A stretch of 64,000 nucleotides of DNA from Candidatus Zymogenaceae bacterium (GTDB lineage Bacteria; Desulfobacterota; Zymogenia; Zymogenales; Zymogenaceae). Position numbers and translations under genes: made by a program. Position 1 is the first letter of the stretch; each line of letters opens with the position of its first letter. The notes below the pieces were generated by a model, which worked only from the letters and a program-made list of their open reading frames with translations, was not told where the DNA came from and did not search any database. Positions 10,140 through 37,166 of this stretch are shown piece after piece. Location: positions 1 to 64,000 of the forward strand of contig JAFGFE010000027.1 of the NCBI GenBank assembly GCA_016931225.1, read 5' to 3'.

Positions 10140-10877
10140 ATGGATGACACATATGTCATGGGCGCTTCCGGATCGATTGCGGGAAACGAGACGATTCCCG
10201 CCTCCCCGGCCGGAGAGACGACCGCACCCGTTCCCGGGGATGACACCGGACAGCGACAATTTTCCGAGGAGTACGTGCGGGAGCTTCGCGAGGAGAACAA
10301 GGCCAGACGCCTGGAAAACCTGAAGCTTAAAGAAGAGATCGACGGCCTGAAGACGAAACTGACCGAGGCCGTGCGGGAGATTTCCGCGGCCCTGGGATTG
10401 GATAACACGCAATCGATGGAGACGGTCATCCGGGCGGCGGTGGAGGGCGTGAACACCGCCCGGGAAGCCCTGATATTCGCCGCGTTTCAGGCGGAGGCCC
10501 AAAACGCCGGCATGGCCGATGATGTGATCGGTGATGCCTTCGCCCTGGCGGACACCGGCGGCATTGCGGTGGATCCGGTCACCCGGGAGGTGACCGGCGC
10601 GGCCCAGGCCGTGTCGGACCTGTTCGACCGAAAGCCCTATCTCTTCGAAAATCCGTATGCAAAAAAGGACGTAGGCGCCGAGACGAACCCAGCGTCGGAT
10701 CGAATGATCCCGTCGGCGGATGTGGAGAGGCTGGCGGCGGAGCTGGGGGTGAGCCCCGAGTTTGCCCGGGAGCTCTCCCGCTCGAGAAGCGATCGCCTGG
10801 GGAAAGGCGTTCCCCTGGCGGACCTGTGGCGGCGTCCCAGGATACGGAAGCTCTCGATTTTTTCACAAGACACATGA
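10140..10877 (+). CDS. Phage scaffolding-like head assembly protein (candidate)
   Basis: 245 residues: an acidic, Ala/Pro/Gly-rich N terminus, a coiled coil (residues about 40-80, RELREENKARRLENLKLKEEI), then a helical C-terminal half. The layout, small size and position directly before decoration and major capsid genes match phage scaffold proteins; sequence identity to a named family is not claimed. The ATG at 10140 has AAGGAG nine bases upstream; the frame's earlier ATG at 9966 overlaps the divergent gene and is rejected. First gene of head block 1. Confidence 0.6.
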   Translation: MDDTYVMGASGSIAGNETIPASPAGETTAPVPGDDTGQRQFSEEYVRELREENKARRLENLKLKEEIDGLKTKLTEAVREISAALGLDNTQSMETVIRAAVEGVNTAREALIFAAFQAEAQNAGMADDVIGDAFALADTGGIAVDPVTREVTGAAQAVSDLFDRKPYLFENPYAKKDVGAETNPASDRMIPSADVERLAAELGVSPEFARELSRSRSDRLGKGVPLADLWRRPRIRKLSIFSQDT

Positions 10878-10900
10878 TTGACTGAAAGAAGGAGATTTAT

Positions 10901-11371
10901 ATGGCACCCTATATGAAATACGGCTATTCATACGGCCCCAGGGTGGTGATTACGGCGAAGGTGGCCGATACTGGCGCCATCGATGACGGAGATATTGTGG
11001 TGCTGGACGCCGTCGGCGGAGCGACCGGCTCCGGATACGTCAAGAAGTGGTCCGCGGCCACGGACGCGGTGGTGGGGGCGGCCCTGGAGAGCGTCGAGAC
11101 CGCACCGGCGGCGGACGGCGGCGATACCGTCCAGGTGGTCCTGGCACTCCCCGGCACGGTCTTCGTGTATCCGGCGTCGGGCGTCACCCAGGCCGCGTGT
11201 TTTCAGTGCTGTGACATCGACGGCGGACAATCCATCGATTTCGACGCGGACACCTATCAGAACGCATGGATCGTTGAGGTGGACGAGGACATGGATTTGG
11301 CGTATGTGATGTTCAAGGGCCCCTTCACCGATGTGGGTGCGGCCGGCACCATCGACTACGGCGTGGCCTAA
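10901..11371 (+). CDS. Phage head decoration-like protein
   Basis: 156 residues, beta-rich and without Lys-rich or membrane segments. The motifs VADTGAIDDGDIVVLDAVGG, VVGAALESVETA and VQVVLALPGTVFVYPASG resemble the capsid decoration fold (gpD or DUF2190-like) that binds capsid three-fold axes. AAGGAG lies before the ATG. It is placed immediately before the major capsid gene, the usual position. Confidence 0.7.
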   Translation: MAPYMKYGYSYGPRVVITAKVADTGAIDDGDIVVLDAVGGATGSGYVKKWSAATDAVVGAALESVETAPAADGGDTVQVVLALPGTVFVYPASGVTQAACFQCCDIDGGQSIDFDADTYQNAWIVEVDEDMDLAYVMFKGPFTDVGAAGTIDYGVA

Positions 11372-11382
11372 GGAGGAACGAC

Positions 11383-12366
11383 ATGGGAATAATGGTAGGC
11401 AGTAACTTTCCCCGGGCTCTGGCCCAGGATCTGTACGAGTGGTACTTCGAGGCGTACGACGCCGAGGAGACCGTGTACGACAAGATCATCGAGGTCATCC
11501 CGATGGATTCCGGCGACGGAATCAAGGGGACGGAGGTCATCGGCGTCTCGAAGCTCAAAGAGGTACCGGACGGCCAGGAAATCCCCCTGACCGAGCCGCT
11601 GGAGGGCTGGACCTGGTACATCAAGTTCAAGACATACAAGGACCAGATCGCCGTCACCGACGATATGCTCTCGGACCTGATGGGCGGGAAGATCAGCGGC
11701 GACCTGATGGAGTTCGCCCGGGGCTGGGGCGAGGGGGTGCGCATCACCGAGGAGGAGGCCGTGGCCCGGCTCTTCAACGCGGGAACCCTCACCGCGGGGG
11801 ATAAACCAGCGTTCGACGGGAGCTTCACCGGCGAGGACGATCCGCATCCCGCCCACATCTACGACGGGAAGCCGTTTTTTGCGCCCTCGGGCTCGGGCCA
11901 CCCCTTCAAGCTCGACGCATCCAGCGTGCTGGGGAATCTCACGGAGTCGCTCAACCTTGATTACTCGAACATCCAGACGGTTTATACGGCCATGAGCGTC
12001 GCCAACGCAAAAAACGAGCGGGGCGACAACATCAGGATCGAGCCGAACGTGATCGTCACCAATCCGAACAATCGCTTCGTGCTGGATCAGATCCTCAAGA
12101 GCGACTACGAGATCGACAACTACGGCAACAAGAACGTCATCGGAAACCTGTTTGTGCCGGTCTACTGGCGGTATCTCGAGGATACCGACGCCTGGTTCAT
12201 GGGCGTGGCCAAGCGCGGCATCCGCTTTTACGACAGGATGCCTCCCAAGATCACCGTCTACCGGGACGAGAAGACCGACACCTGGTTTGCGAAGGTCAAG
12301 CGCCGTTTCGGTGTGGGCGTGGTCCAGTGGCGTTACTGGTACGGCTGCAACCAGGCCGCCAGTTAA
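11383..12366 (+). CDS. Major capsid protein, HK97-fold type
   Basis: 327 residues. The N-terminal helix (FPRALAQDLYEWYFEAYDAEE), the E-loop-like region (YIKFKTYKDQIAVTDDM), the peptide NVIVTNPNNRFVLDQILKS of the A domain and the C-terminal PPKITVYRDEKTDTWFAKVKR fit the HK97-like major head proteins of tailed phages. AGGAGG precedes the ATG, and 11 bases separate it from the decoration gene. No protease gene is visible nearby, and no portal or terminase lies upstream, where a phage would have them; upstream is a bacterial nitroreductase instead. Confidence 0.85.
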   Translation: MGIMVGSNFPRALAQDLYEWYFEAYDAEETVYDKIIEVIPMDSGDGIKGTEVIGVSKLKEVPDGQEIPLTEPLEGWTWYIKFKTYKDQIAVTDDMLSDLMGGKISGDLMEFARGWGEGVRITEEEAVARLFNAGTLTAGDKPAFDGSFTGEDDPHPAHIYDGKPFFAPSGSGHPFKLDASSVLGNLTESLNLDYSNIQTVYTAMSVANAKNERGDNIRIEPNVIVTNPNNRFVLDQILKSDYEIDNYGNKNVIGNLFVPVYWRYLEDTDAWFMGVAKRGIRFYDRMPPKITVYRDEKTDTWFAKVKRRFGVGVVQWRYWYGCNQAAS

Positions 12367-12428
12367 TTTATAATTCGTGTCCCGGGGGAGTGGCTCCCCC
12401 GGGATGCATCGCTTGAAGGAACAGGAGC

Positions 12429-12716
12429 ATGGCGATTATCAGCGATATTCAGCTTTCCACCAATCGGTATTTCGAAGACCAATCCGGTACCGCGCTGACC
12501 GGGTCCTTTACGGCCCAGTCCTTTGGGTTTTCGTCGTTCTCCATACTGATCATCAACGACGACGCCGCGGGGCATATCGAATATTCGTTCGACGGCGAGC
12601 ACGTCCACGGGCGGCTTCTTGCCGGGGAGTCGAGGGTGATGGACTTTCGCCGCCAGCGCCGGATGTGGCTTAGAGGCGAGAGCGGCGGCGAATTGTATCG
12701 GCTGGAGGTGTATTGA
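12429..12716 (+). CDS. Small phage structural protein
   Basis: 95 residues, beta-rich, ending HVHGRLLAGESRVMDFRRQRRMWLRGE. It follows the capsid gene by about 60 bases and its stop overlaps the next start (TGATG). Comparable small beta proteins after the capsid gene in tailed phages serve as head fibres or vertex proteins. No family is recognised. Confidence 0.65.
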   Translation: MAIISDIQLSTNRYFEDQSGTALTGSFTAQSFGFSSFSILIINDDAAGHIEYSFDGEHVHGRLLAGESRVMDFRRQRRMWLRGESGGELYRLEVY

Positions 12717-12982
12717 TGAGCGGATTTTTACGGAGGGCCGATGCGCCCGGCCCGAAGAGGAAGACGGCGAAGAGGCGCGCCGAGAGGCCACAGAAAAAGC
12801 AGGCGATGAACAAGACGGCGAAAAAGGCCGGTGGGGTGACGGCGGAGGAGACGGGAAGGGGAGCGACGGGACAGGCAGTGAGGGAGACGGATCAGGAGAC
12901 GATGAAGGGGACGGAAACGGAGACGGCGGCGAAGGGAACACGACAAGAAGACTTCGATGCACGGGACAGGCGGGGGGGATGA
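12716..12982 (+). CDS. Low-complexity charged protein in phage head block
   Basis: 88 residues beginning at an ATG that overlaps the previous stop. It is dominated by Lys, Arg, Thr, Glu and Gly (for example ETMKGTETETAAKGTRQ), predicted disordered, with no hydrophobic core. Its DNA is repetitive in GACGG and GGAGAC words. Coupling at both ends (the next ATG starts one base after its stop) supports it being translated. It may be a flexible linker or a head-associated basic protein. Confidence 0.5.
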   Translation: MSGFLRRADAPGPKRKTAKRRAERPQKKQAMNKTAKKAGGVTAEETGRGATGQAVRETDQETMKGTETETAAKGTRQEDFDARDRRGG

Positions 12983-12983
12983 C

Positions 12984-13190
12984 ATGGGATTCACGAAAGA
13001 ACAGCTCGACGCCGTTGAGGAACAGATCGCAAGCCTCAAGGCCGAGAGCTTCAGCGTGGGTGAGCTGAGCGTCGATCAGGAGAAGACGCTGGCCGCCCTC
13101 ATCCGCATGCGGGATGTCATCCGGGCGGGACTCAACAGGGGCGGGGGGATTTCTTTCGGAAGGTCCCGGCTCACCGGTGTGGACGAGTGA
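12984..13190 (+). CDS. Small helical phage protein, possible connector
   Basis: 68 residues: FTKEQLDAVEEQIASLKAES, then a short beta element, then TLAALIRMRDVIRAGLNR. The helix-hairpin-helix layout and position at the end of the head block recall small head-tail connectors such as gpW, but sequence similarity is too weak to call. Translationally coupled to the preceding gene. Block 1 of phage genes ends here. Confidence 0.55.
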   Translation: MGFTKEQLDAVEEQIASLKAESFSVGELSVDQEKTLAALIRMRDVIRAGLNRGGGISFGRSRLTGVDE

Positions 13191-13276
13191 GATGTCCCGA
13201 TACAAACATGTTTTTTACACAAAAACCGCCCGCCTCTCGGGGCCGCCGGTCCATACTCCTTTTGGATATGACGGGA

Positions 13277-14905: not shown

Positions 14906-16354
14906 ATGAAAAATCGGTTCGAAAGGTGTGCGCTGGTGATCGCGGCGACACTTTTTGTTGCGGTATGGGCCGTGTCCTCGCCAGCCTTCGGGGAGCGGAT
15001 TCGCGAGGGAGGATTCCTCGATCAAACCGGCGATGTCGACACCTTCACCGTAGACAATCCCGGAGAAAACCTGCAGCTCACCTTCGAATACCTGGGTCCT
15101 GGTGCCGGGTACGGACTGAGTGTTGTCGACTCGTATGGTCTTGCGACCGAGTATACCCTGAACAGGGGGGATATCATCACGCTGACCGGCCCCGGACGGT
15201 ATACCCTCTCGGTCTTTTCCCGGTCAGGATCGGGCGGTTGGACCCTTTTCTACGACGTCGAGACAACACCCGCCACCGGCTCCGGGGATGAGACCGTTCC
15301 CGGGGGGGATGAAATCACCATCCACGGCACCATCAGCGGTCCCGGGGATGAATATACGTTTCGGATTCCCGCCGTCTCCAACTATGTGGAGGTGGCGTTT
15401 GACTATCCCCGGGGCGGCGCATCGTTCCATGTCAGGGTGGTGGGGAAGGACAAGATCACCATCCTGGGAGACTACGACCTGGAACGGGGGGAACTCATTC
15501 AGCTTTTCGGCGGCGATAATTTTTACGTGACCGTGTACACCACCGAGGGCGGGGGGCGTTTCAGCGCCACTTTCAATCCCCAGGGCGCCCCGGTTCCCGA
15601 AGAGAGCATCCTTGCCCAGGGGATCCTTTCGGGGGTGTGGGACACAAAAGAGGTGATATTTGAGGCCGAGCTCGATAATATGAGCATCCTCTTTGAGACG
15701 CCTGATGTGGGTACGGAGTTTTGGGTAAAAATCGCCGGCGATCACGGTAAGACCCTCTTGGGGGACTTCGATTTATCCGAAAGCAAGATCATCAACCTGG
15801 ATGAAAAGGGCGTATATCTCATTACCATCTATTCCCGGAGCGGATCCGGATCGTATCGGGCGTTCTACTTCGGCGGCGAGGACCTGGATCGAATGGCACG
15901 GATCACGCCGCCTCCGGAGACTCTGCCCACGGAGCCGCGTATCGGTCCCAAGTTCCCTCCGAAGATTCCGGGCAGGATGGAGCACACGGTACCCGAGATC
16001 GCAGGGCTCCCGCCGGGAAGCGTCCACGAGACCGGATTCCTGAATGGGAGCGGCGATTTCAAGACATTCATCATCAACGCCCACATCGATTACGTTGAGG
16101 TCACCTTCACGTATCCCGCGGGCGGGGTTGATTTTTGGGTGACGATCCTGGGCGAGGACGGCAAGTCCGAGCTTGGAGACTTCGATCTGGATAACGGTGA
16201 GATCATCCAGCTTATCGGCGGTGGAGTGTTTTACGTCAAGATATATTCCAAAGAGGGTGCGGGGGAATGGTCAGCCGTGTATAACGAGGGGAGAACCGGG
16301 CCCTACGGTACCGGAGAGGGCATGTCGTCCAGTCCGGGCGGATATATCTATTAG
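14906..16354 (+). CDS. Secreted four-repeat beta protein (PPC-like domains)
   Basis: 482 residues with a signal peptide (ALVIAATLFVAVWAVSSPAFG, cleaved near residue 29). The mature protein has four related units of about 90-100 residues, opening with GFLDQTGDVDTFTV, GTISGPGDEYTFRI, GILSGVWDTKEVIF and GFLNGSGDFKTFII; most then carry an LGDxDLxxxExIxL-type segment and YxVxIYSxxGxGxWxxxY. This is the jelly-roll pattern of bacterial pre-peptidase C-terminal domains. A Pro-rich linker precedes the last repeat. No enzymatic domain is present. It probably sits in the periplasm or outside the cell as a binding or scaffold protein. Confidence 0.75.
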   Translation: MKNRFERCALVIAATLFVAVWAVSSPAFGERIREGGFLDQTGDVDTFTVDNPGENLQLTFEYLGPGAGYGLSVVDSYGLATEYTLNRGDIITLTGPGRYTLSVFSRSGSGGWTLFYDVETTPATGSGDETVPGGDEITIHGTISGPGDEYTFRIPAVSNYVEVAFDYPRGGASFHVRVVGKDKITILGDYDLERGELIQLFGGDNFYVTVYTTEGGGRFSATFNPQGAPVPEESILAQGILSGVWDTKEVIFEAELDNMSILFETPDVGTEFWVKIAGDHGKTLLGDFDLSESKIINLDEKGVYLITIYSRSGSGSYRAFYFGGEDLDRMARITPPPETLPTEPRIGPKFPPKIPGRMEHTVPEIAGLPPGSVHETGFLNGSGDFKTFIINAHIDYVEVTFTYPAGGVDFWVTILGEDGKSELGDFDLDNGEIIQLIGGGVFYVKIYSKEGAGEWSAVYNEGRTGPYGTGEGMSSSPGGYIY

Positions 16355-20732: not shown

Positions 20733-20947
20733 GGAAAAGTCTGCCCGTCGATTCATATTCTTCATGATGCTATTCCTTATGGGTCATACTGTCGGTACGG
20801 TGAGCATGAGGGACGTTTCAACTCTGTGTCTCCGGACCCGCCGGTAGGTCCCGCACATCACCAAGCTCAGTGTAAATAAGGTTAGGGCGCGGCGGGTCCG
20901 GGGGCGGCAGAGACGTGAACAACCGGAACGAAAGAGAGATAAGAGAT

Positions 20948-21289
20948 ATGGCGGATATCCCGACCGGCGGCATGAAGGCCACAGTGATGCGGATCATCGA
21001 GACGCTGGGCGAATCGATGGATTTCCAGCGCCGGGACGCCCTGGGGGAATGGGGGGCCGCGTCTACGGGTGTTGTGGTACACACCCAACCCGTCGGTTCC
21101 ACCCACATGCGGGATCATACGGGCATCGGCGTTGAGGGATGCCGGTTGTGTTTTGCCGGGTCCGATGCGGATATCCTCCCCGGAGACAGGACGGCCCTCG
21201 AGGGATCATGGCACCTGGTGACGCGGCTTTTGGACCGAGAGACGCATCTCGAGTTTCAACTGGAAAAGACAGCCGAGGCGGTGGAGTGA
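20948..21289 (+). CDS. Phage head-tail joining-like protein (candidate)
   Basis: 113 residues from ATG 20948 (an in-frame GTG at 20915 is possible). The pattern MRIIETLGESMDFQRRDALGEW, then beta strands, then CRLCFAGSDADILPGDRTALEG resembles small head-closure or stopper proteins in which an OB/SH3-like barrel carries an oxidised Cys pair, but the match is by layout only. It is followed by tail-terminator-like and tail-tube-like genes in the order used by tailed phages. Confidence 0.55.
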   Translation: MADIPTGGMKATVMRIIETLGESMDFQRRDALGEWGAASTGVVVHTQPVGSTHMRDHTGIGVEGCRLCFAGSDADILPGDRTALEGSWHLVTRLLDRETHLEFQLEKTAEAVE

Positions 21290-21323: not shown

Positions 21324-21770
21324 ATGGCACAGACATTTGAGACGGAAATTGAACGGCTGCTGTACGAGACGCTGACCGGGGACGACGCCCTGGCGACTCT
21401 TCTGGGCGCGGACGAAATGGATCCGCGGGTATATCTCTCGTGGAGGACGAAAGAGTGCCCCCTGATATCGGATTCCAAGCCCGGATACGTGATGATACGG
21501 CTCGATTCAGCCGATCAGCCCCAGAGGGTGGGCGGGACCGTGGACGACTGGCGGGAGCGCTATCTTGTGAGTCTTTTCTCGCTGCCCGAGAAGAGGGAGC
21601 TTCGCCGTGAGGTCGTCGATCGGTTTCGCACGCTGTTTCACCGACAAAGCTTTGTGACCGAGAGCTTTCTTGTCTATGATACGGTCGAGATCGCGAGGGA
21701 GGAGCGGGCGACGGATGATCGGATCGTGGAGCTGATGTATACCCTTTCGATACGATTTCTACCGCGGTAG
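21324..21770 (+). CDS. Phage tail terminator-like protein
   Basis: 148 residues: the N-terminal helix FETEIERLLYETLTGDDALATLLG, then PRVYLSWRTKECPLISDSKPGYVMIRLDS, then ERYLVSLFSLPEKRELRREVVDRFRTLFHR. This arrangement is characteristic of tail completion/terminator proteins (gpU or DUF3168-like) that cap the tail tube. Located between a head-closure-like and a tail-tube-like gene. Confidence 0.65.
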   Translation: MAQTFETEIERLLYETLTGDDALATLLGADEMDPRVYLSWRTKECPLISDSKPGYVMIRLDSADQPQRVGGTVDDWRERYLVSLFSLPEKRELRREVVDRFRTLFHRQSFVTESFLVYDTVEIAREERATDDRIVELMYTLSIRFLPR

Positions 21771-21813: not shown

Positions 21814-22584
21814 ATGGGAAGCGACAAACTGGACAGATCGGCGGTGGGCGTTATTGAGGTGTTCACCGACGAGGGATGGGTCGATCTCGGCATTATCCAT
21901 GAGGAGGTCATTCGGGTAAACGGTGTGGAGATGCCCCATATCGACACAACCGACCGCCCCTTCGGCATCGACCGGATACTGGTGAAGGATGTGTCGGTGG
22001 ATATCGATTTCATCTGGGCGGAAGTGGGAGATATCGCCCTCTGGAGGCTGGTGATGGGCGGAGGGGCCGTGACCGTGACCGAATCCGGAACCGAGGATGT
22101 CGCCGACGAGGAGGTGACCCTTTCAGGCACCGCATGGACGCCTATTTTCCACGCCGCGGACTTTATGACCGACTGCACGGTATCGGTACACGATACGGCG
22201 GGGGGCGGCGTGGCGTATGCACAGGATGTCGACTACTACCTGGATCGCAGGGGGGGACACCTCGTGCGCATTCCGGGGGGCGCGATAACCGACGGACAGA
22301 CGGTCTTCGTCGATTATCGGCGGCGGTGTCTCTCCGGCCGCTGTTTCCATCCCTGGGAGGGGGGTGAGGCATACACTACTTCCCTTCGCCTGACGAAGCC
22401 GCTCACGGGCGGGGACGTCTTTCGCGTCACCCACAGCCGGGTTGTTTTCTCATGTTCCGTCGAGCTTCCCCTGGCGCCGGGGAGTGAGGGGAAATGGGCC
22501 GGGGTGAAGAGTGGCGTCAGGTTCCTTAAGGATATAGAAGGCATATACGGGCCCTTCGGCCGATGGGAGATATACACGCCGTGA
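21814..22584 (+). CDS. Phage tail tube-like protein
   Basis: 256 residues, almost entirely beta: VGVIEVFTDEGWVDLGIIHEE, ILVKDVSVDIDFIWAEVGD, an inserted immunoglobulin-like part (AWTPIFHAADFMTDCTVSVHD), and the C-terminal GDVFRVTHSRVVFSCSVELPL. This fits phage major tail proteins that polymerise into the tube. No sheath gene is seen, so a siphovirus-like tail is most likely. The next expected genes, tail chaperone and tape measure, are absent or truncated. Confidence 0.65.
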   Translation: MGSDKLDRSAVGVIEVFTDEGWVDLGIIHEEVIRVNGVEMPHIDTTDRPFGIDRILVKDVSVDIDFIWAEVGDIALWRLVMGGGAVTVTESGTEDVADEEVTLSGTAWTPIFHAADFMTDCTVSVHDTAGGGVAYAQDVDYYLDRRGGHLVRIPGGAITDGQTVFVDYRRRCLSGRCFHPWEGGEAYTTSLRLTKPLTGGDVFRVTHSRVVFSCSVELPLAPGSEGKWAGVKSGVRFLKDIEGIYGPFGRWEIYTP

Positions 22585-23710: not shown

Positions 23711-23948
23711 TAATAACAACTCAGTGTACTTTAGAGAAGGGACTTCAACAGAAGAAGTCAGTTCCTTAGAATATACACTTGCACAAGAAACAACTTCTGG
23801 AGAAGATTCTCGGATAGAAGTATCAAAAAAGAAATCAACATCTACTGAACCTAGCAATGTAGGTGATTATCCTTTTTTAGATGATAAGGAATACGAAATC
23901 GGAAAACCCAAAAGAATTATCATACGAGGTAAGATTTTCTTTGGCTAG
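23697..23948 (+). CDS. Small Ser/Thr/Glu-rich protein in AT-rich island
   Basis: 83 residues, starting at an ATG that overlaps the TIGR04255 stop. It is rich in Ser, Thr, Glu, Lys and Asn (STEEVSSLEYTLAQETTSGE) and predicted largely disordered. Its 3 prime end overlaps the next frame by 68 bases. It may be an independent linker-type protein, or a frameshift in either may have split one longer gene, since the next frame starts in the same region without a good ribosome site. Confidence 0.45.
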   Translation: MKKNNNNNSVYFREGTSTEEVSSLEYTLAQETTSGEDSRIEVSKKKSTSTEPSNVGDYPFLDDKEYEIGKPKRIIIRGKIFFG

Positions 23949-27947: not shown

Positions 27948-28216
27948 GTCAATCTTCGTCTCCCTAAAAAAATCCTCAACACTTTCATACTCATAGTGTC
28001 CTAGTCATGCATGTCATGCCGAAGACGTTCAGGATACCTGTACGTGTGCGGGTGTTCATACGTCCAGGTATGTCTCTCGGCTCGTCTTCCGACGAACCGT
28101 CTTTTTTTCCCCGTAAAAAATCCTTGTTTATATTTTCTATAGACGGAACGGGACTGTGTCATACTTGCCGCACATGTGAAGTGACACATGCAATCCTTTC
28201 TCGGGAGAGTTCTCCG

Positions 28217-28606
28217 ATGACCACGGTACTGGGCGGCGTCGCCCTTGATCACGATCCGATCTGGATCGATGAGTTCAATCAAGAAATATATCCGGGGACA
28301 TCATATGTCGCCCTGGATGGGACGGAAAACATGTATGTGGGATTTCGGATGGGACACTTTTCCATCACACTGGAGGCGACGGAAAAAACCGGCTGGCTTT
28401 CCAGAACAACGGTTGACGCCTTGATAGAGATGGCACGGGTGCGTGATGCCTCTTACACTCTCAGTCGTAACGGCGCGGATTGTACCGTACGTTTCAGGCA
28501 CGAGGTGTCCGGCGGGCCGATACAGATGGAACTGCTCGCCCCGACGGCGTTTCCGGAAGACGATACCTGGTATTATGGCAAAATTTTTTTGATGTGCACA
28601 GGATGA
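28217..28606 (+). CDS. Phage tail-associated protein (candidate)
   Basis: 129 residues from ATG 28217; the longer frame to 28007 lacks support. Beta-rich with FRMGHFSITLEATEKTGWLSR, TVDALIEMARVRDASYTLSR and DDTWYYGKIFLMCTG. It opens phage block 3 and its stop overlaps the next ATG (ATGA). It may be a distal-tail or tail-tube paralogue; identification rests on context. Confidence 0.55.
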   Translation: MTTVLGGVALDHDPIWIDEFNQEIYPGTSYVALDGTENMYVGFRMGHFSITLEATEKTGWLSRTTVDALIEMARVRDASYTLSRNGADCTVRFRHEVSGGPIQMELLAPTAFPEDDTWYYGKIFLMCTG

Positions 28607-28749: not shown

Positions 28750-30816
28750 ATGACGATTTCACGTTATTACCCAAACAGACGAACCGGTCCCACCTCTGGG
28801 GGTGGGATGAGCGACGATCAACTTCCCTCCAATGTGTCCCAAAACCTTTTTCCGAACGTCACCGAATCAGAAAGAACATCCGGGTTGACTCGAGTCGTAA
28901 AATACTTCGTTAAATGCATATCCGGCACGGCAAACAAGGCGAAGGAGTTCATCAGTAGGCTTTCCACCGCCGACGACCGGGTGGTGTTGAAAAAGGGGAC
29001 GGACCTTGATACAAGGGCGACGGCGAAGACGTACGGATGGATTGAATATGACATCGCTTGGTCGGCCCGGACCGTCACGATTGCAAATGCTGTGTCTCTG
29101 GCCAAAGGTGACGAGGTGTACTTCTTTAATCCCGACGGGACGTATAAGGGGTATGCCTTCGTTTCCTCTGACACATCACATTCCACAACCTTCGTTATCG
29201 ATGCGATGAGTGACGGCTCAGACCCGGTAGCGGGGGACATCGCCGCAACATTCTGGCACGGGGCGGGGGATTTGGCCGAAGCGATCACCGCGTCGAACAC
29301 CCCTTGTACCATCGTGGCCGACTTTGAGGACGCCGACGGGATATTTCCATCTTCCCTTGTCGGACTCATAAATCATGGTAATCCCAACCCGTCTACGGGC
29401 CGACCTCCCGTTGAATATCTGACGGTAGATAGATGCGCGTTCACAATAGGGCAGGGGAATGTGCATGATGACGACTGCTCATCTCTCACTGGATGGACCG
29501 ACGGCGACTTATCGGGAGAGAGCACACAGGAGACGTTTCAAGATAGAGATACGTTCAAGTTCACCATTGCATCCATCGGTGGCGGACACAAGGCCGAGCG
29601 ATATCGGAATGTAGGAACACTCGAAGATTCTTTCACGGTTCAGATTCGCACCTATTTTAATGATATAGGAACAACGGGAGACGCAGACAACTTTCTCCTG
29701 ATAGTGGACAACGGGACTATCGTTTTATCTGTACGATTCGGTACGGATGGGATGTTCATTTATGACGGGGCGGCATGGAATGAGGTGGGGACAAACATCG
29801 TAGAAGAGGATACATGGACGGTGTGGCGGCTTGTGGTGGACGGTTCCTTAAGTGGATCCGAAACCGTTGATCTCTACAAGGACGACTTTCTTATTGAATC
29901 CGGGATAGACTGTTCCGATGCCTCCGGTGCTACCGATGGGCTGGTGACGTTACGTCAGGAAGGGACAACGACGAGCGGAGTCACGTCATATATCGATTTT
30001 CTCAAAATTTCGGATGGGTCCCCTAACCTGACGGGAGAGTGTTTTATCGCTACGGAGACGACAATTCAATCAGACTACGCTGTCAAGACCCGTGCGGAAG
30101 TGCAGGGATCGGAAAGCGAAAACTTTAATGTGGACGGTCTCACCCTGATAGTCCAAGTTGATAGAGGCGACTCTCAGTCCGTGACCCTTTCGGGTAACGG
30201 CCAAACGGCCGCCCAAGTGGTGGCTCAAATTTCTCTCACAGGGGCGACGACATATGAATATACTTCGGGGAAAGTGGCAATTCGGTCGGATTCATACTAT
30301 ACCACCGGTTCCATCCAGATACTTTCAGCATCAACCGCCGATATAGTCCTCGGGCTTTCAAATTCCATTGTCTATGGAACCGACGGCATGGTGGCATCGT
30401 GTGTATTACAGTTGGGTGATATCGAACCGACTGTAACCACTCCCGTGGCTTCTGGATCGGGAATATACGATCATTCTACATATCCGATTTTGACATATAA
30501 AAAAGGGACTCTCACGGCTGATGTGACCGTGACGTTTTCCAATGATACAAACTTCACCGTGTCAATGGTGGTAGATGGGAATTCCACGAACCTGGGGGCG
30601 GGTGATATCAACACCGATTTTCAGATCCCGCACCAGGGAGAGTACTACTTCACGATTCAATCGGACGGTTGGGGTGGGACCTGGGTGGCGGCAAATACCT
30701 TATCGTTCTCCCTCGTTCAGAGCGCAAGGGGTGTGTGGGCGAAAGAGGTAGTCCCCGCCGCCACGGAGGCGAGTTCGGGGAACAAGGTGGAGATAAGTTG
30801 TCGGGCGCAGTCGTAA
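28750..30816 (+). CDS. Large phage tail/fibre-like protein with LamG-like domain
   Basis: 688 residues, acidic, Thr/Ser/Gly-rich, no signal peptide. Residues 60-180 form a beta domain (TYGWIEYDIAWSARTVTIAN, GDEVYFFNPDGTYKGYAFV). About 225-420 looks like a concanavalin/LamG-type sandwich (SFTVQIRTYFNDIG, DNFLLIVDNGTIVLSVRFG, TWTVWRLVVDGSLSG, VTSYIDFLKISDG). The C-terminal part is beta-rich. It probably forms a fibre or receptor-binding part of the tail. The stop is immediately followed by the next ATG. Confidence 0.65.
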   Translation: MTISRYYPNRRTGPTSGGGMSDDQLPSNVSQNLFPNVTESERTSGLTRVVKYFVKCISGTANKAKEFISRLSTADDRVVLKKGTDLDTRATAKTYGWIEYDIAWSARTVTIANAVSLAKGDEVYFFNPDGTYKGYAFVSSDTSHSTTFVIDAMSDGSDPVAGDIAATFWHGAGDLAEAITASNTPCTIVADFEDADGIFPSSLVGLINHGNPNPSTGRPPVEYLTVDRCAFTIGQGNVHDDDCSSLTGWTDGDLSGESTQETFQDRDTFKFTIASIGGGHKAERYRNVGTLEDSFTVQIRTYFNDIGTTGDADNFLLIVDNGTIVLSVRFGTDGMFIYDGAAWNEVGTNIVEEDTWTVWRLVVDGSLSGSETVDLYKDDFLIESGIDCSDASGATDGLVTLRQEGTTTSGVTSYIDFLKISDGSPNLTGECFIATETTIQSDYAVKTRAEVQGSESENFNVDGLTLIVQVDRGDSQSVTLSGNGQTAAQVVAQISLTGATTYEYTSGKVAIRSDSYYTTGSIQILSASTADIVLGLSNSIVYGTDGMVASCVLQLGDIEPTVTTPVASGSGIYDHSTYPILTYKKGTLTADVTVTFSNDTNFTVSMVVDGNSTNLGAGDINTDFQIPHQGEYYFTIQSDGWGGTWVAANTLSFSLVQSARGVWAKEVVPAATEASSGNKVEISCRAQS

Positions 30817-31320
30817 ATGGAAACTTATTATCTCACTCCCGTTGAATCTACACCCCAGGTGTACTATCTCAAACCGGTTGAGTCGAATAGACAGAACTAT
30901 TACTTAACTCCGATTAATTCGGCGGGGGATAAAAACGAGGAGTGGAAGTTTATTTGCACAATCGCGGTAGACAGTTCACTGTGGAATATGCTTTCTTTGA
31001 ATCCTGGAGATTACAGCGGCTATATCGGATACATTACGCTTCAATCATATGAATCCGTAAAAGTCGAAGCAGTAAGCGGTTACTTTAACGATGGGGCGGA
31101 AATAAGACCTTATAGAGCATTTGTCAATCTTGTTACCAAAGTTGATTATGCAACGCTCGGGACGTACGGTGAATATGACGATCCGTATTATGCGATACTT
31201 CAATTTGAGGGGAAAGCGGTGGAATTGACGATTGGAGACGATAAACAATTATGGTGGGGCGTTGATGGAATCGCAACACCGAATATCGGCGTGATGCTTA
31301 TAAGAGTTTACGCAAAATGA
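30817..31320 (+). CDS. Phage structural protein with YYLxPVES repeats
   Basis: 167 residues. The first 35 residues are three tandem 12-residue repeats, YYLTPVESTPQV, YYLKPVESNRQN, YYLTPINSAGDK, followed by a beta-rich domain (EEWKFICTIAVDSSLWNML, YSGYIGYITLQSYESVKVE). The gene overlaps the next by four bases. The repeats may be a trimerisation or docking element linking the neighbouring fibre and hub proteins. GC content falls here compared with the upstream gene. Confidence 0.6.
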   Translation: METYYLTPVESTPQVYYLKPVESNRQNYYLTPINSAGDKNEEWKFICTIAVDSSLWNMLSLNPGDYSGYIGYITLQSYESVKVEAVSGYFNDGAEIRPYRAFVNLVTKVDYATLGTYGEYDDPYYAILQFEGKAVELTIGDDKQLWWGVDGIATPNIGVMLIRVYAK

Positions 31321-34300
31321 GCTTTTTTGTAGTAGAACATTTCAATTTACCTAATGGTGCGGTTCAGGAATCGATTAAAACCGCAACGAAAAATGACGGT
31401 AATGTTTACACATCTAACGGGTGGGGCATAACTGCCACGTATGCAGACACAGACGCAGCAATGATTACGTGCGACAAGGGGTTGAAAAAAGCGGAATTTG
31501 TTACAATACCATTTCGAACATCTATAAAATACAAGCTGTCGGCATTGAGAGATGGTGATTATATCAGGCTGTTTGTTATTCAGTCGTTATCAGCACAGCC
31601 AGAGCCATCAGGTTCGTTCACCAATTGGGTATTATCATGTAACCTTTATCGAATTGGTTCTAACTATCGAGAATATTGGTTTATTACTAATTCATCGGGA
31701 ACAGCAAGAGGATACAACGGAATTGGTGGAACATGGGGGACTACAAGTAATTATGTCAGGACTGTAAGTCTTAACACAGAATACACACTTATAATTCAAT
31801 ATGATCCGACAACAAAGACCGTTTTTTTAAATAATGGTATACAATCAACCGATTCGGAGCAATTACAGTATTACGATGATCATTACTGGTGGTTTGTGGG
31901 GGACAACAACGATAATATTTGGCATGGTATAATTAAATTCGATTATATTATCGTTGAACAAACGGAAATCGCAAATACCTTTATCTCGCATAACAATCTC
32001 CTGACAGAGAAATATCACTCAAATCACTTCAACGGTTCCGCGCTGTGGGTTTTGAATGATTTCACAACGGAAGTTGCGGATACACTTACAATCAAAAACG
32101 ATATTCTTGATTATGATCTCGTTGAGTCGGATTCTATCGTCCTCAATCGCATCGGCGGGGGTGGATCGCAGGTATATATTCCATCAGTCAAGGTACTATT
32201 GAATGAAAGAGACGTTACCTCACAAGTGCTTTCGTACTTCATAGATTGGAGTGAGCGATTCGTCAAAATGTTGAGAATCGATTTTGACTGGTCAATCTCG
32301 GCGGAAATCTACCGAAAGAATAATGCCGACTTCAAGATCCCTCAGATAGAGATTCAGGTCGATCACGATTCATCGGGGATGTATATCACGCGGGGAGAAT
32401 TCTTTATCGAGGAAATCTCCGAAACCATGAGCAACGGAAGGCATGCAAAACGGATCTCAGGGAGAAGCAAAGCCGCACTCCTTGATAGGCCGTATTCCGC
32501 TCAGAACACCGTCTCCTATGAGAACACCACAAAGCGGGCGATAGTGACCAATTTGGTGGAGGAAGCCGGGCTTGAATATGAATGGTGCCTCCCCGACGGA
32601 CCGATTGAGTACCACACTTTCGATGCCCGCACTCCGATGGAAGTCATTAAAGAAGTAGTCTCGGCGGTCGGCGGGCATATTTCAACCGGCTATAATGACA
32701 AACTCTATTTTCATGCAAATGATTACACTCCGAGAAATCATCCTCCTGTGTTCTCTGTGGATTCTTCGGATATTCATCAGATAGAGATACTCGAAGAAAT
32801 CCCGCAGTCTTTCAACAAGATTGTAGTAAAGGGAAGGGCTAATAACGAGGCGACCTTTAGAGCATGGGCCGAAGTGGAGCTTGTCTCCGTGGATTCGCGG
32901 GGAAATTTTAAATCCACGTTGGCCGCCGATGGGAATGATTACACAGTGTTGATTGCAACCTGCTACGACTCTGAGGGGATGTTGGTGGATACAGGATTGA
33001 TTGAAGAAGAATCTGCCACACCTTCGAACGCAAATACAATCGCCGTCTTAAAGCGCATCGCAAACGGTGGGGTTGTGGGGATATGGCCGGACATCGGCGG
33101 CGGGGTGCCGGGCACGAAGGTCGACGGGCCGTATATCTTCGACGATTTTGTGATTACCACGACAGGGAATATGCTGGAAGGGCCGCACCTCGTCACCTAT
33201 CACGGCGGGGATTCGGTATCTTTCTCCGTAGAAGGACCGGGGATTGTAGAGGAAAACTCTGTTTTGGTCGAGAACGGGCAAGGGAGAACAAAGCTCTACG
33301 GAAACGAGCTTGGTGCGGGTACCATTTATGTCAAAGCCACCTATGACGGTCAGGAATCCAATCCCGTCGCTTTGATTCTCGGAGATCCGCGGGTGGGAGA
33401 TTTGGATGCGAACGCTAATCCCTCATCTCTCCTTGTCAAAGAGACGAGTGTTATCACTGCAAGAGTCTACGATCCCGACGGCGATCCTGTGGGGGATGGG
33501 TACACTGTCAAGTTCAAGATAATCGCCGGGAACGGTGCGCTTTCGGCAGACTTAGACATCACGACTACAAACACCATAGAAAACGAGGAGCAGGTGTCAA
33601 GCTCCTATACATCTATCAGGGTGCAAAACCCCATATCGAACCTCACACATATCTATGCACTGAAGGATGATTCCCATGAGTATCAGGGAAGAACGATTGA
33701 CGATGATGAGATAGATACTTCTTATGATTACGCAACCGGGGCCATAACGGAAGGGTCTACGATCACACTTTCAGACAATCTCCCGAAACCTCAGACGCGG
33801 GTAGTCGTCACCTATAAATCGGGCGGTACGGCGCAGATCGTATACACCGCACCGTCCTTTGTCGACAGGGAGGGGGAGGAAGTTGTCATAGAGGTGTGGG
33901 CAGGAGGCTTGAATCACCTGGTGTTCATTGATGTGGGGCGAAAAGAGGCTACAACCCCGTCGGTGGGCGGCGGTAAGCGGGTAGGCGTTGTTACTTTCCA
34001 CGTGGATCACACCCCAACAAGCGCGGAAAGGGGACGGATCACGCTTTCGGAGCCGATTCCCCAGGTTTCGGGATTTGTGGCGGTACTCGGGTCGTATACG
34101 CTTGACGGCCTTTCAGCCGGGGTCTCGAATGGTCAGGTAGTTGGATTAATGAAGATCGGTGAAAACGTGGTAGCCACGATTCATGGAGAGCGGGACACAT
34201 CGGCGAAAGGTGACTACTGGAACGGAGATTATATCCGAGGAAGTAGGCGGGTATATATCATCAATACCGAAACACCCGTGCCGAATGCAAGTGTGAAAAT

Positions 34301-34586
34301 AGAATGGAATGGAGGGGATGAATCCGGCGGCCACACCGAATCGGGTCTTAAAACTAACTCCGAAGGAGTATTCACCTTCACGATGGGGGTAAGCGGTACT
34401 CATATTATCACCATTACACACGATAATCCCCAGAGTCCGGATGCACCGCTGGGGTTTCTGGAATACTTGGGGACAATCACCATCCCAGGACAGGTCGGAG
34501 ATGAACGGGGGACCGTCGGAGATCAAGTTTTTTATAAGCATATGTCAGGGTCGTTTTCTGTGCCCATTATTTACGAGAAGATATGA
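31317..34586 (+). CDS. Multidomain phage tail hub/spike protein
   Basis: 1089 residues. Residues 1-225 form a lectin-like sandwich (FVTIPFRTSIKYKLSALRDG, YTLIIQYDPTTKTVFLNNG). About 290-520 resembles baseplate hub proteins (LNERDVTSQVLSYFIDWSE, RHAKRISGRSKAALLDRPYS, RTPMEVIKEVVSAVGGHIS). About 560-800 contains immunoglobulin-like invasin/Big_1-type repeats (PSSLLVKETSVITARVYDPD), and the end carries a carboxypeptidase-regulatory-like domain (NTETPVPNASVKIEWNGG). The first 700 bases are markedly AT-rich compared with the rest, consistent with a swapped receptor-binding module. Confidence 0.7.
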   Translation: MSFFVVEHFNLPNGAVQESIKTATKNDGNVYTSNGWGITATYADTDAAMITCDKGLKKAEFVTIPFRTSIKYKLSALRDGDYIRLFVIQSLSAQPEPSGSFTNWVLSCNLYRIGSNYREYWFITNSSGTARGYNGIGGTWGTTSNYVRTVSLNTEYTLIIQYDPTTKTVFLNNGIQSTDSEQLQYYDDHYWWFVGDNNDNIWHGIIKFDYIIVEQTEIANTFISHNNLLTEKYHSNHFNGSALWVLNDFTTEVADTLTIKNDILDYDLVESDSIVLNRIGGGGSQVYIPSVKVLLNERDVTSQVLSYFIDWSERFVKMLRIDFDWSISAEIYRKNNADFKIPQIEIQVDHDSSGMYITRGEFFIEEISETMSNGRHAKRISGRSKAALLDRPYSAQNTVSYENTTKRAIVTNLVEEAGLEYEWCLPDGPIEYHTFDARTPMEVIKEVVSAVGGHISTGYNDKLYFHANDYTPRNHPPVFSVDSSDIHQIEILEEIPQSFNKIVVKGRANNEATFRAWAEVELVSVDSRGNFKSTLAADGNDYTVLIATCYDSEGMLVDTGLIEEESATPSNANTIAVLKRIANGGVVGIWPDIGGGVPGTKVDGPYIFDDFVITTTGNMLEGPHLVTYHGGDSVSFSVEGPGIVEENSVLVENGQGRTKLYGNELGAGTIYVKATYDGQESNPVALILGDPRVGDLDANANPSSLLVKETSVITARVYDPDGDPVGDGYTVKFKIIAGNGALSADLDITTTNTIENEEQVSSSYTSIRVQNPISNLTHIYALKDDSHEYQGRTIDDDEIDTSYDYATGAITEGSTITLSDNLPKPQTRVVVTYKSGGTAQIVYTAPSFVDREGEEVVIEVWAGGLNHLVFIDVGRKEATTPSVGGGKRVGVVTFHVDHTPTSAERGRITLSEPIPQVSGFVAVLGSYTLDGLSAGVSNGQVVGLMKIGENVVATIHGERDTSAKGDYWNGDYIRGSRRVYIINTETPVPNASVKIEWNGGDESGGHTESGLKTNSEGVFTFTMGVSGTHIITITHDNPQSPDAPLGFLEYLGTITIPGQVGDERGTVGDQVFYKHMSGSFSVPIIYEKI

Positions 34587-35170
34587 TACCGTCAAAACTC
34601 TACGACATCACCGCCCGGCAGATCAAAAAGGAGGCGCCGGACAACATCGCGGTAGGAACCATCACCGCAGTGGTGGACACCCGCCGATACTCCGTATTGA
34701 TGGAGGGGAAATGGAGGGGGAGTGTGCGGGCGTCGGCCGATACGGAGTTTTCTGTCGGGGACCGGGTCAATCTGATTCTCCCCGGAGGCGATCTGAACAA
34801 CGCCCAAATTCTTGGACTGTCGTCAAAGACCAATCCGGTTATGGCGACGGTGATATACGGGGAGGGAGACTACGAGAAATCGGGGATCGAGGATCCCTTG
34901 ATCACGACGGAAGACGAAGCCTTTATCCGGGCGAAAGACGAGCTGAAAGCCGGGAAGATCGGGCTTCGTTTCACTGTGCCGTTCCTGACCCGGGCAGGAA
35001 TGGAGAACCTTCGTCCAGGCTCCGTCTTGAGAGTCGTCGCTCCGGAAGCCGGGCTTGTGGGGGACAATCTCTCCATTGAGAGCATGAGAGAATCCTTCGA
35101 TAGTAAAAACGGGCTTCTGGTAAGCGTGACCGGGGTTAAGTGGGAGGAGTGGGAAGGCGGGGAAATGTGA
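34583..35170 (+). CDS. Phage baseplate assembly-like OB-fold protein
   Basis: 195 residues. AVGTITAVVDTRRYSVLMEG and FSVGDRVNLILPGGDLNNAQILGLS form a small five-stranded barrel typical of gpV/gp5 N-terminal OB domains, followed by a helical and beta C-terminal part (AKDELKAGKIGLRFTVPFL). It overlaps the hub gene by four bases, as expected for hub and spike components that assemble together. Confidence 0.6.
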   Translation: MIPSKLYDITARQIKKEAPDNIAVGTITAVVDTRRYSVLMEGKWRGSVRASADTEFSVGDRVNLILPGGDLNNAQILGLSSKTNPVMATVIYGEGDYEKSGIEDPLITTEDEAFIRAKDELKAGKIGLRFTVPFLTRAGMENLRPGSVLRVVAPEAGLVGDNLSIESMRESFDSKNGLLVSVTGVKWEEWEGGEM

Positions 35171-35556
35171 TGGATGAATTGAGCGCGGTCGCAGTCACAG
35201 CGTTGTTCTCTCTTTTTGTGGGCGTGGTCGGCAAAATCCTATTCGACTGGCTCAAACATCGAAACGGCGCGAGGTTCGAGATCAAGGATATTGATATTAA
35301 GGATCTCGCTAAAACCGTTTATTCAGTAAGTGAGAGGGTGGGGCACATCATGGACATTCAGTGCAAAACCGATGGAGATGGACTGCCGATGGTCTACATG
35401 CCCAGGGGGTACAGGGACGTCATGGACAGGGTGGCGGAGAGTGTCGCAAAATTCGGCTGGGGTGTCGAACAAAACACAAAGGCGTTGAAGGAATTCACCG
35501 AACAGATGCGAAAACTCACCGGCGTTATCGAGAAACAGTCGAAGAATGGGAGATGA
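35170..35556 (+). CDS. Membrane-anchored phage accessory protein (holin/XhlA-like layout)
   Basis: 128 residues from ATG 35170, which overlaps the previous stop. One N-terminal membrane segment (AVTALFSLFVGVVGKILFDWL, residues 7-27), then a basic and helical cytoplasmic part ending in QMRKLTGVIEKQSKNGR. It is just before the endolysin gene. The layout recalls membrane-tethered lysis accessory proteins, but the length is greater than that of XhlA. Confidence 0.55.
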   Translation: MDELSAVAVTALFSLFVGVVGKILFDWLKHRNGARFEIKDIDIKDLAKTVYSVSERVGHIMDIQCKTDGDGLPMVYMPRGYRDVMDRVAESVAKFGWGVEQNTKALKEFTEQMRKLTGVIEKQSKNGR

Positions 35557-35561
35557 GGGGC

Positions 35562-36005
35562 ATGGCGAAGATGACGAGTGCCGATTGGCGGGCGGTGAAT
35601 TATTTCACGCCAAGAGAGTTCCATCATCCTGATAAAATGGAGACGGACATTATTGCATTGCTCGACGATCTCCGGGACGTGTTCAAATTCCAATTCGTTA
35701 TACACAGCGATTGGAGAAAACCGCCCGATGGCGTCCCGCCGGAACTGTGGCCGAGTGAGCACAATCACGGGAGGGCGGTGGATTTCCATGTGGAAAACCT
35801 TGACTATCTTGACGCGGCCGATCTGATGAAATTCAGCCTCCGGAGACTCGATGTGTGGCAGTCCGTCGGTCTTGGTCTATATCCGCACTGGAACAATCCG
35901 GGCTTTCACCTCGACACAAGGGGATATATGGCGCGGTGGGGGGCGGTACACAGGAACGGAAAACAAACGTACGTCACGTATAACGAGGCGTATAGACTCA
36001 TCTGA
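35562..36005 (+). CDS. Peptidase M15-type endolysin
   Basis: 147 residues. Zinc-binding SEHNHGRAVDF matches SxHxxGxAxD of the D-Ala-D-Ala carboxypeptidase/L-alanyl-D-Glu endopeptidase family, and PGFHLDTRGYMARWG supplies the second His. No signal peptide, so release needs a holin. GGGAG lies nine bases before ATG 35562; ATG 35553 is less likely. Members cut peptidoglycan stem peptides. It heads the lysis cassette. Confidence 0.85.
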   Translation: MAKMTSADWRAVNYFTPREFHHPDKMETDIIALLDDLRDVFKFQFVIHSDWRKPPDGVPPELWPSEHNHGRAVDFHVENLDYLDAADLMKFSLRRLDVWQSVGLGLYPHWNNPGFHLDTRGYMARWGAVHRNGKQTYVTYNEAYRLI

Positions 36006-36018
36006 TAGGAGAAGAACA

Positions 36019-36195: not shown

Positions 36196-36244
36196 CCCGT
36201 CCGCCATTGGCGATGGAGTAACGGGCGATCCTGTGGGGCTGCCC

Positions 36245-36270
36245 GGCCGTATTAAAAGAAAACGGCCTTT
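36245..36270 (+). terminator. Weak hairpin between lysis genes
   Basis: GGCCGT and ACGGCC arms around an A-rich 11-base loop, followed by only three T. It may be a partial terminator or processing site. Confidence 0.35.
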
Positions 36271-36311
36271 ACATACATAACGGAATTGACTGTTTAATGA
36301 TCTGAAATGGT

Positions 36312-36635
36312 ATGAGAATCATCCTCATCAAAGACGACGGCACTCCGAAAGGCGCGTGGATCGCGGTGTTCATTACTTTCGTGTGGATTGTCGTACACGT
36401 TGCAGCGTTCTTCTGGAAAGCGGGAGCGGATAATCTTGCGCTGTTTGACGCCGCGTTCACCGCCGGGTGTCTGTCGTATGTTGGGATGTACTTTTTGAAA
36501 AAATACAAGGGGAATGAGGATGAGATTTCGTCACTGGGTGATGTTTGTAGAGGTCTTAGTCGTGATTGCCATGGTGGTAACGATAGCGATTCAGGTCCAC
36601 AACATATCACGGCTCCAGTCGAAAATCGAGAATAA
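36312..36635 (+). CDS. Two-span membrane protein, holin candidate
   Basis: 107 residues: membrane segments at 15-36 (WIAVFITFVWIVVHVAAFFW) and about 43-62 (FDAAFTAGCLSYVGMYFL), then a charged tail. The last 40 residues are encoded within the start of the next ORF in another frame, so the two genes overlap by about 115 bases. A two-span hydrophobic protein in this position is a good holin candidate. Confidence 0.6.
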   Translation: MRIILIKDDGTPKGAWIAVFITFVWIVVHVAAFFWKAGADNLALFDAAFTAGCLSYVGMYFLKKYKGNEDEISSLGDVCRGLSRDCHGGNDSDSGPQHITAPVENRE

Positions 36636-36747
36636 TCAGGCGTTTTCACTCCAAGGCTATCTCGAAGAGGAGTATGTCCCGGAACAGCTTGAAGCCCTGA
36701 CAGTCGATGATCTTTCACGAATGGGGGGTGTCGTATGGGGCGAGTGA
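36520..36747 (+). CDS. Single-span membrane protein with coiled-coil, possible i-spanin
   Basis: About 75 residues (ATG 36520, or 36514). One N-terminal span (VMFVEVLVVIAMVVTIAIQV) is followed by a short heptad region (HNISRLQSKIENNQAFSLQG). It overlaps the holin-like gene before it and the lipoprotein gene after it by 13 bases. Overlapping membrane genes ending in a lipoprotein recall Rz/Rz1 organisation. Confidence 0.5.
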   Translation: MRFRHWVMFVEVLVVIAMVVTIAIQVHNISRLQSKIENNQAFSLQGYLEEEYVPEQLEALTVDDLSRMGGVVWGE

Positions 36748-37166
36748 AATATCGTGTGACATCCATACAACTCACATCGCTTTGTGTGCTGTTGTTCCTG
36801 GTTTTTGCAACACAGGGTTGTTCGACCGCTTCCTGGATTGTCAACCCCCCGCCGCATATATCAGACCTGTACATGACGGAGGATGACGTCGTGGAATACT
36901 TCGGCCGTATCTCAAAGCAGGAACCATCCGATCCGGACGCGGTGCTCTACAATCCCGAAACGGATCGGTATGAGGTCAAGGCCCCGACATACAAGAAAGC
37001 CCTCACGAAAAGCGTCATGTACGAGATTCAGAAAGAGAAGATAATCGCATTCAGTAGGGACTATCACCGGGAGACGTTCGGGAAGGCGGTGAAGAAAGAC
37101 CTGGGGACGGCGGGGATTTGGAGTGTCATTATCGCTGTCGCAATCGCCGTCTTTTCGGGCTTATAA
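36735..37166 (+). CDS. Lipoprotein with C-terminal membrane segment, candidate u-spanin
   Basis: 143 residues. The N-terminal signal ends in a lipobox (FLVFATQGCS, Cys near residue 29), giving an outer-membrane lipoprotein. About 95 periplasmic residues follow, and the last 20 form a membrane span (GIWSVIIAVAIAVFSGL). A lipid anchor at one end and an inner-membrane span at the other is the defining layout of unimolecular spanins such as T1 gp11, of similar length, which fuse the two membranes at lysis. It implies a Gram-negative host. Last gene of block 3. Confidence 0.6.
   Translation: MGRVKYRVTSIQLTSLCVLLFLVFATQGCSTASWIVNPPPHISDLYMTEDDVVEYFGRISKQEPSDPDAVLYNPETDRYEVKAPTYKKALTKSVMYEIQKEKIIAFSRDYHRETFGKAVKKDLGTAGIWSVIIAVAIAVFSGL

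Follow-up and report, generated by a model that had tools for sequence, protein, structure and literature searches.

Dispersed phage-derived operons with a common promoter type in Candidatus Zymogenaceae: a predicted gene transfer agent

The window analysed here is a 64-kb stretch (G000:C27:1-64000) of the draft genome of a Candidatus Zymogenaceae bacterium, a family filed under Deltaproteobacteria by NCBI and under the phylum Desulfobacterota in GTDB. It carries three blocks of phage late genes separated by bacterial genes. The genome (G000; 3.73 Mb, 46 contigs, 99% complete) was compared with those of three relatives of the same family (G001, G002 and G003), which are drafts in many contigs; three genera are represented in all, G002 and G003 belonging to one, and G003 is 88% complete. 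Judged from sequence comparison, the scattered blocks, together with a packaging operon on another contig, probably form a vertically inherited, co-regulated and dispersed gene transfer agent (GTA).

Phage blocks of the window

The initial annotation had described three plus-strand phage blocks whose genes follow the usual phage order, and they are present at nearly the positions it gave, with open frames. No tRNA was found in the window, and no direct repeats longer than 10 bases at the block edges. The first block encodes head proteins.

9425-10003, minus strand: nitroreductase (PF00881, 1.2e-19), next to the head block and divergent from it in three genera
10066-10104, plus strand: promoter-like site of the head block, TTCATA...AT...TACAAT; exact match in the genome-wide pattern search, rank 2 of 446,680 positions with a matrix from the other genomes
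10140-10877, plus strand: scaffold-like protein (PF06810, Phage_scaffold, 1.2e-3, below cut-off; phrog_2303, 0.0095)
10901-11371, plus strand: decoration-like protein, by position only (phrog_3351 at 0.092)
11383-12366, plus strand: major capsid protein (PF25209, Phage_capsid_4, 9.2e-15, over cut-off)
12429-12716, plus strand: conserved head-block open reading frame (ORF), 56-63% identity across three genera, no PHROG match
12713-12982, plus strand: low-complexity head-block ORF with no orthologue in the compared loci, which may not be a gene
12984-13190, plus strand: conserved small head-block ORF, 67% identity to the G001 orthologue, also in G002

G001 and G002 also have the scaffold, decoration and capsid genes with two small ORFs, again facing away from the nitroreductase gene. 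The capsid block is thus present in three of the four family genomes and adjoins that gene each time. The scaffold-like gene, whose ATG is set at 10140 because 10143 is no start codon, has weak family matches and positional orthologues in both G001 and G002 (30.7-41.8% identity). The decoration-like ORF is strongly conserved (69.2-80.1% identity across three genera), with no Pfam match; its label, by contrast, is given by position alone. The ‘connectors’ formerly assigned to this block find no support, the small ORFs concerned having no PHROG (12429-12716) or Pfam (12957-13190) match. Capsid identity across the three genera is 73.4-77.7%, compared with 65.7-67.3% for the gene gltX. The GC (guanine plus cytosine) content at capsid third positions is 0.86, and the base composition of the head genes is host-like.

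The second block would complete the head and begin the tail.

20752-20790, plus strand: promoter-like site of the stopper, terminator and tube block; exact pattern match, rank 1 of 446,680 positions
20915-21289, plus strand: head-closure (stopper) protein, by predicted fold only; 31% identity to G001
21324-21770, plus strand: tail terminator, by predicted fold only; 40% identity to G001
21814-22584, plus strand: tail tube protein (weak phrog_807, 1.9e-3), 50% identical in G001, with a homologue in the G002 C82 prophage

The stopper model (predicted local distance difference test score, pLDDT, 78) resembles the phage stoppers SPP1 gp16 and PBSX XkdH with a modest template-modelling (TM) score of 0.4-0.5. 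The terminator model (pLDDT 74) resembles tail terminators and a chain of a native GTA virion (6tba_4A, TM 0.63). The two models were built from three and two sequences, respectively, and the fold matches are modest.

The third block encodes distal tail and lysis proteins.

28127-28165, plus strand: promoter-like site of the distal tail and lysis block; exact match in the genome-wide pattern search
28217-28606, plus strand: tail-block ORF of the PHROG 4408 family (phrog_4408, 7.4e-14)
28750-30816, plus strand: structural tail-block ORF, common to the prophages C82 (G002) and C6 (G000)
30817-31320, plus strand: small tail-block ORF, weakly like the G001 ORF at the same position (22% over 164 amino acids)
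31317-34586, plus strand: tail hub/baseplate protein (phrog_1887, a PHROG tail protein family, 1.5e-10)
34583-35170, plus strand: tail-block ORF, matched at 32% by two segments of G002 C29
35140-35556, plus strand: tail-block ORF, by position only, with no confident family
35553-36005, plus strand: endolysin (phrog_894, 2.3e-7), with orthologues in G001 and G002 C29 (47-63%)
36312-36635, plus strand: small lysis-region ORF, by position only; PHROG search without match
36514-36747, plus strand: small lysis-region ORF, G001 orthologue with 28.6% identity over 77 amino acids (1.1e-8)
36735-37166, plus strand: lipoprotein-like ORF at the block end, with orthologues in G001 and G002 C29

The comparison of gene order in relatives, proposed at the outset, showed that the block order of the window recurs in G001, where the stopper, terminator and tube genes and then the distal tail and lysis genes lie within ~16 kb after the head block. 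Chance block order can therefore be dismissed. In G002 no tail block follows the head block, and the hub and endolysin genes are on a short contig, C29.

The packaging operon and the shared promoter

Terminase and portal genes had been reported as missing. This is true of the window, but the genome has both at G000:C20:96819-99620. A terminase search with PF03354 returned nothing in G000; the broader PHROG family phrog_2 found TerL instead (1.9e-44). The portal was recognized by phrog_104/64 (1.9e-7 to 2.8e-5 across the four genomes). The operon has a constant order, a gene for a helix-turn-helix (HTH) protein of 75-81 amino acids followed by a TerS-like ORF, TerL, a small ORF and the portal, and it is divergent from gltX in G000, G001 and G002 (NCBIfam TIGR00464, over cut-off in all three). 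The HTH gene of the G000 operon is at C20:99848-100078. Besides the prophages C6 and C82, searches of the four family genomes found TerL at G000:C20, G001:C72, G002:C27 and G003:C409; in G003 a contig of 4,012 bases carries the portal, the small ORF and the end of TerL. The portal is intact in all four genomes. Two further, weak phrog_2 matches lie at G000:C15 (3.9e-5) and G001:C25 (8.8e-5). The TerL sequence has recognizable motifs which we take to be those of the ATPase and the nuclease.

In G001 and G002 the packaging operon shares contig and strand with the head block and stands 22.8 and 12.5 kb upstream of it. In G000 it stands mid-way in contig C20 of 206,863 bases, and because of this position it must be truly elsewhere or far off from the window. 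The many-contig state of the relatives' genomes would be compatible with a misassembly or contamination that joined blocks of different origin. This is very improbable, as the packaging operon lies by gltX and the head block by the nitroreductase gene in three genomes, the head genes are host-like in composition and G001 has the whole set on one contig of 160,855 bases. That independent assembly has the same block order while sharing only 14906-16354 of the intervening genes.

The block starts have a common architecture, TTYATA, 5-6 bases, AT, 19 bases and YANAMT (TTYATA-N6-AT-N19-YANAMT). It is present at every one of the 10 complete block starts (G000 and G001 have four each, G002 has two), nine of them exact; the other is the G001 packaging operon, with CTCATA. 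It is absent from the hub start on G002 C29, which is internal to its block and close to the end of the contig. Genome-wide, the exact pattern has 15 matches in the four genomes compared with five for a reversed control: six in G000 (four block starts), three in G001 (all block starts), six in G002 (two block starts) and none in G003, the control giving 1, 1, 1 and 2. A second pattern has 13 matches compared with one for its control. Promoter matches on G000 C40 and C44, G002 C69, C86 and C89, and G003 C7 were taken as chance. With a matrix from which the tested genome was left out, sites of G000 rank 1, 2 and 3 of 446,680 positions, those of G001 rank 1-4 of 321,634 and those of G002 rank 1 and 4 of 403,040.

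The two G002 sites that rank between these, C27:64362 and C84:14896, had not been met before. The first precedes a gene for a 108-amino-acid membrane protein adjoining an IrrE-type peptidase (PF06114) and an XRE regulator, and the G003 orthologue of the membrane protein gene carries the promoter site too. The peptidase-XRE pair adjoins a paralogue of the HTH gene of the packaging operon; in G000 this paralogue is at C20:113036-113290, with an XRE gene at 113493-113942. The second site precedes a 309-amino-acid ORF adjoining a TPR gene, and this layout recurs on G003 C418, there with a helical ORF of 577 amino acids.

The loci of the HTH paralogue are L051:11738-13942 (G000:C20), G001:C72:136550-138100 and G002:C27:60835-62495. 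A LytR/CpsA/Psr-like gene always comes after it (with Pfam support for the G000 copy), and in G000 and G002 the paralogue is divergent from the XRE regulator.

The genome-wide search for missing genes was less rewarding for the tape measure, which in G000 was found only in a separate prophage on C6 at ~108-154 kb (phrog_167, 1.5e-18). That prophage also has its own capsid (phrog_334, 8.4e-27), a TerL-like match and a repressor-like ORF. The 577-amino-acid ORF of G003 matches tape-measure PHROGs (4e-14) but also coiled-coil families. As a query it found a TPR-linked multi-copy family in G002 and G003 and nothing in G000 or G001; the 309-amino-acid ORF had no match in G000, G001 or G003. Because of the coiled-coil matches, and because the G002 copy under the same promoter has no tape-measure match, the longer ORF is kept only as a tape-measure candidate.

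Members of the multi-copy family have similar ends and variable middles. Several adjoin TPR genes, and two are under the promoter type described above.

Inheritance and the reading as a gene transfer agent

Portal homologues were found in five of 297 genomes of the phylum, four of them Candidatus Zymogenaceae; the match in the fifth, G009, is weak (3.3e-6 over partial length). Capsid homologues were found in three of 59 genomes, all Candidatus Zymogenaceae, with none in G003, and a capsid search of genome contigs gave one relative, the G001 contig. No capsid, portal or tail tube was confirmed in the viral contigs scanned. Among phage records the capsid has 13 matches at 23-26%, e.g. in Alcaligenes phage vB_Af_QDWS535, the portal has none at E <= 1e-3, the tail tube has one partial match and TerL has 2338. 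The best of the TerL matches listed is 38%, and those listed include Halorubrum phage Hardycor1, Tunturi_4 and the Thermus phages phiFa and P23-45 at 32-38%. As single genes lead to different phages, no single known ancestor is indicated.

Portal identity between the family genomes is 62.7-69.7%, similar to that of gltX. A TerL tree was built from 11 rows, the G003 row filling 44% of the columns and the C6 TerL being left out. In it the four family proteins form one clade (95/97), and those of the same-genus genomes G002 and G003 are sisters (100/99). The packaging and head genes thus show mostly vertical inheritance and co-diversification with the host, unlike the tail hub. The selection analysis suggested at the outset gave ratios of non-synonymous to synonymous divergence (dN/dS) of 0.04-0.54 where computable, used qualitatively only because dS is mostly >1 and so mostly saturated; the frames are open despite this saturation.

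The GTA-like element first proposed from the window is supported by the packaging block beside gltX, the capsid block beside the nitroreductase gene, the open frames and the shared promoter. Of the six GTA features given in the relevant part of PMC9662315, three can be compared with the sequences and agree with them, the one on inheritance for the packaging and head genes only. The similarities of capsid, portal, TerL and hub, with the predicted folds of stopper and terminator, suggest caudoviricete-derived proteins that could form a tailed particle. The genes are endogenized at several loci, C20 and the three C27 blocks, and are split also in G001 and G002. A prophage would be one contiguous element, sporadic in related hosts; here the genes are spread over two contigs in G000 and adjoin conserved host genes across three genera. 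With loci on different contigs in G000 and ~23 kb apart in G001, the set presumably cannot travel as one compact piece. Simultaneous expression of the operons, formation of particles, packaging of host DNA and its transfer would follow if the prediction is correct.

Several observations weigh against this reading. The tail block does not track the host: hub identity is 31.5-34.6% between the three genera compared with 32.2-37.3% to the C82 prophage, so that the tail is either fast-evolving or exchanged with prophages. The G002 tail tube was found only in that prophage, and searches of G003, the 88% complete genome, found no capsid, tail tube or hub. The G003 TerL is cut by the contig end, and the C82 TerL falls outside the family clade on a long branch, the Alcaligenes phage also being long-branched. 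The C82 tape measure as a query found only itself and nothing in G000, G001 or G003; phrog_4200 matched only G003 C418, in a search that must be insensitive because it also missed the C6 tape measure. For the promoter, the pattern was read by eye from the same sites to which it is then fitted, the matrix test alone being held out, and that scan covers retrieved genome stretches, not whole genomes. It leaves the fourth G000 site (28127) outside its best 14. Four of the 15 exact matches (C40, C44, C69 and C86) cannot be connected with the element in any obvious way. Motif discovery in 11 upstream regions did beat 20 shuffles each, with z values of 7.1 and 13.3, but the shuffles used fewer seeds than the real run.

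The C82 prophage of G002 is of interest as a relative. Its tail tube, distal tail ORFs, hub and endolysin are homologous to those of the element and are encoded in matching order, but its capsid and tape measure are its own, its portal is of another family and it has no shared promoter. The absence of a tape measure at the junction where C82 has one would suit a decaying prophage, broken up by bacterial gene insertions and in the course of being lost, as would the host genes between the blocks, the recent low-GC insertion at 22.9-24.5 kb and the lack of detected capsid and tail genes in G003. Such decay is unlikely, since independent events would not preserve places, frames, capsid and promoters: the genes keep their sites by gltX and nitroreductase in three genera, the frames are open at saturated synonymous divergence, the capsid (73-78%, third-position GC 0.86) is better conserved than gltX (66-67%) and promoters are retained at every block. 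A domesticated particle, in which the packaging and head genes do a job other than transfer and the tail block comes from a separate prophage lineage, would explain why the former follow the host and the tail genes do not, and why G002 has a head block without an adjoining tail block and its sole tail tube in a prophage. This too is quite improbable; the presumed ATPase and nuclease motifs of TerL argue for DNA packaging, and the tail and head blocks are under the same promoter in G000 and G001.

If the blocks do form a GTA, phage packaging, head and tail genes would have been taken into the chromosome of a Candidatus Zymogenaceae ancestor and then been split into at least four operons with host genes between. 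A tentative scheme, rather less likely than not, is an independently evolved GTA lineage in which the scattered operons make up a dedicated regulon under one promoter class, with TTYATA at about -45, AT at -33 and then a TATA-like box. The switch might be the small, sigma-region-4-like HTH protein encoded by the first gene of the packaging operon, guessed to be the activator, and possibly also its paralogue beside the XRE repressor and the IrrE/ImmA-type peptidase. The regulon might also take in the 108-amino-acid membrane protein of G002 and G003 and the TPR-linked long helical protein of that genus, maybe a relocated tape measure. On the main reading of the element as a GTA, host signals would switch the HTH-type regulator and, because one promoter type reads each operon, the operons would be expressed together. 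A head would be made from scaffold, capsid and portal and filled with host DNA by the TerS-like, TerL and portal set; stopper, terminator, tube and hub would complete the tail; and endolysin and small membrane proteins would open the cell to release the particles.

The genes between the blocks were thought to be bacterial, and family matches confirm it. They include an iron-alcohol-dehydrogenase family member, deoC (over cut-off), a glutamate-synthase domain protein and NrpR, together with a xylulokinase-like sugar kinase whose match is below cut-off. None of these five genes was found at the G001 locus. One further ORF stands between the head and tail-tube blocks in both genomes.

14906-16354, plus strand: 482-amino-acid ORF, 49% identity between G000 and G001

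It has internally repeated segments and no Pfam match, and it is probably a bystander because it has, by eye, a housekeeping-type promoter of its own. The two genes at 22949-24504 (29-33% GC in a window of 53% GC; the first of the TIGR04255 family, 2.6e-29) are a recent insertion exactly between the tail-tube and distal-tail blocks. A defense function was considered for them and rejected, PADLOC giving no match.

Elsewhere in the window, PADLOC matches the ORF at 39978-40835 to a TIR-type effector (2.2e-11), and the ORF also has a nucleoside deoxyribosyltransferase match below cut-off. Upstream of the nitroreductase gene, a long ORF at 7613-9256 has pentapeptide-like repeats by eye and no NCBIfam or PADLOC match.

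Comparison with known gene transfer agents

No report of a GTA in Candidatus Zymogenaceae came up among the papers listed by the open-access searches made. The element, which is not assigned to any named GTA family, probably arose independently, and its gene set is fragmented to an unusual degree. Against the sequences of solved structures, the capsid profile had no match at E <= 0.01 and the portal profile matched only two citrate synthases, regarded as chance matches. The likeness of the terminator to one RcGTA virion chain is confined to the fold.

The main structural cluster of RcGTA is contiguous, whereas the Zymogenaceae element has its packaging, head, tail-tube and distal-tail genes in separate places. 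The two are alike in having phage-derived genes at several host loci, five in RcGTA according to the pertinent section of PMC9662315, and in vertical inheritance; a direct regulator of several loci, as outlined for the Rhodogtaviriformidae in parts of PMC9662315 and PMC9638019, would be a further likeness. BhGTA (VSH-1) of Brachyspira, likened here by description, is also a GTA from outside the alphaproteobacteria with genes probably over several loci, but it differs in having a structural cluster of 16.3 kb (both points from the same section of PMC9662315).

GTAs have several origins, and similarity to known ones cannot find them, as set out in the relevant passage of PMC11841831. The route to recognition used here, orthologous host neighbours and a promoter common to scattered operons, could reveal others. 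If the reading is correct, the promoter predicts further members, and the replacement of phage control by host control becomes testable. A further parallel in kind, again by description, is Dd1 of Desulfovibrio desulfuricans, a GTA of a delta-proteobacterial sulfate reducer; GTAs such as Dd1 have so far received only cursory characterization in the account given by that part of PMC11841831. The Zymogenaceae element would add to these a GTA from a family of uncultured, anaerobic delta-proteobacteria, its genes being more split up than usual.

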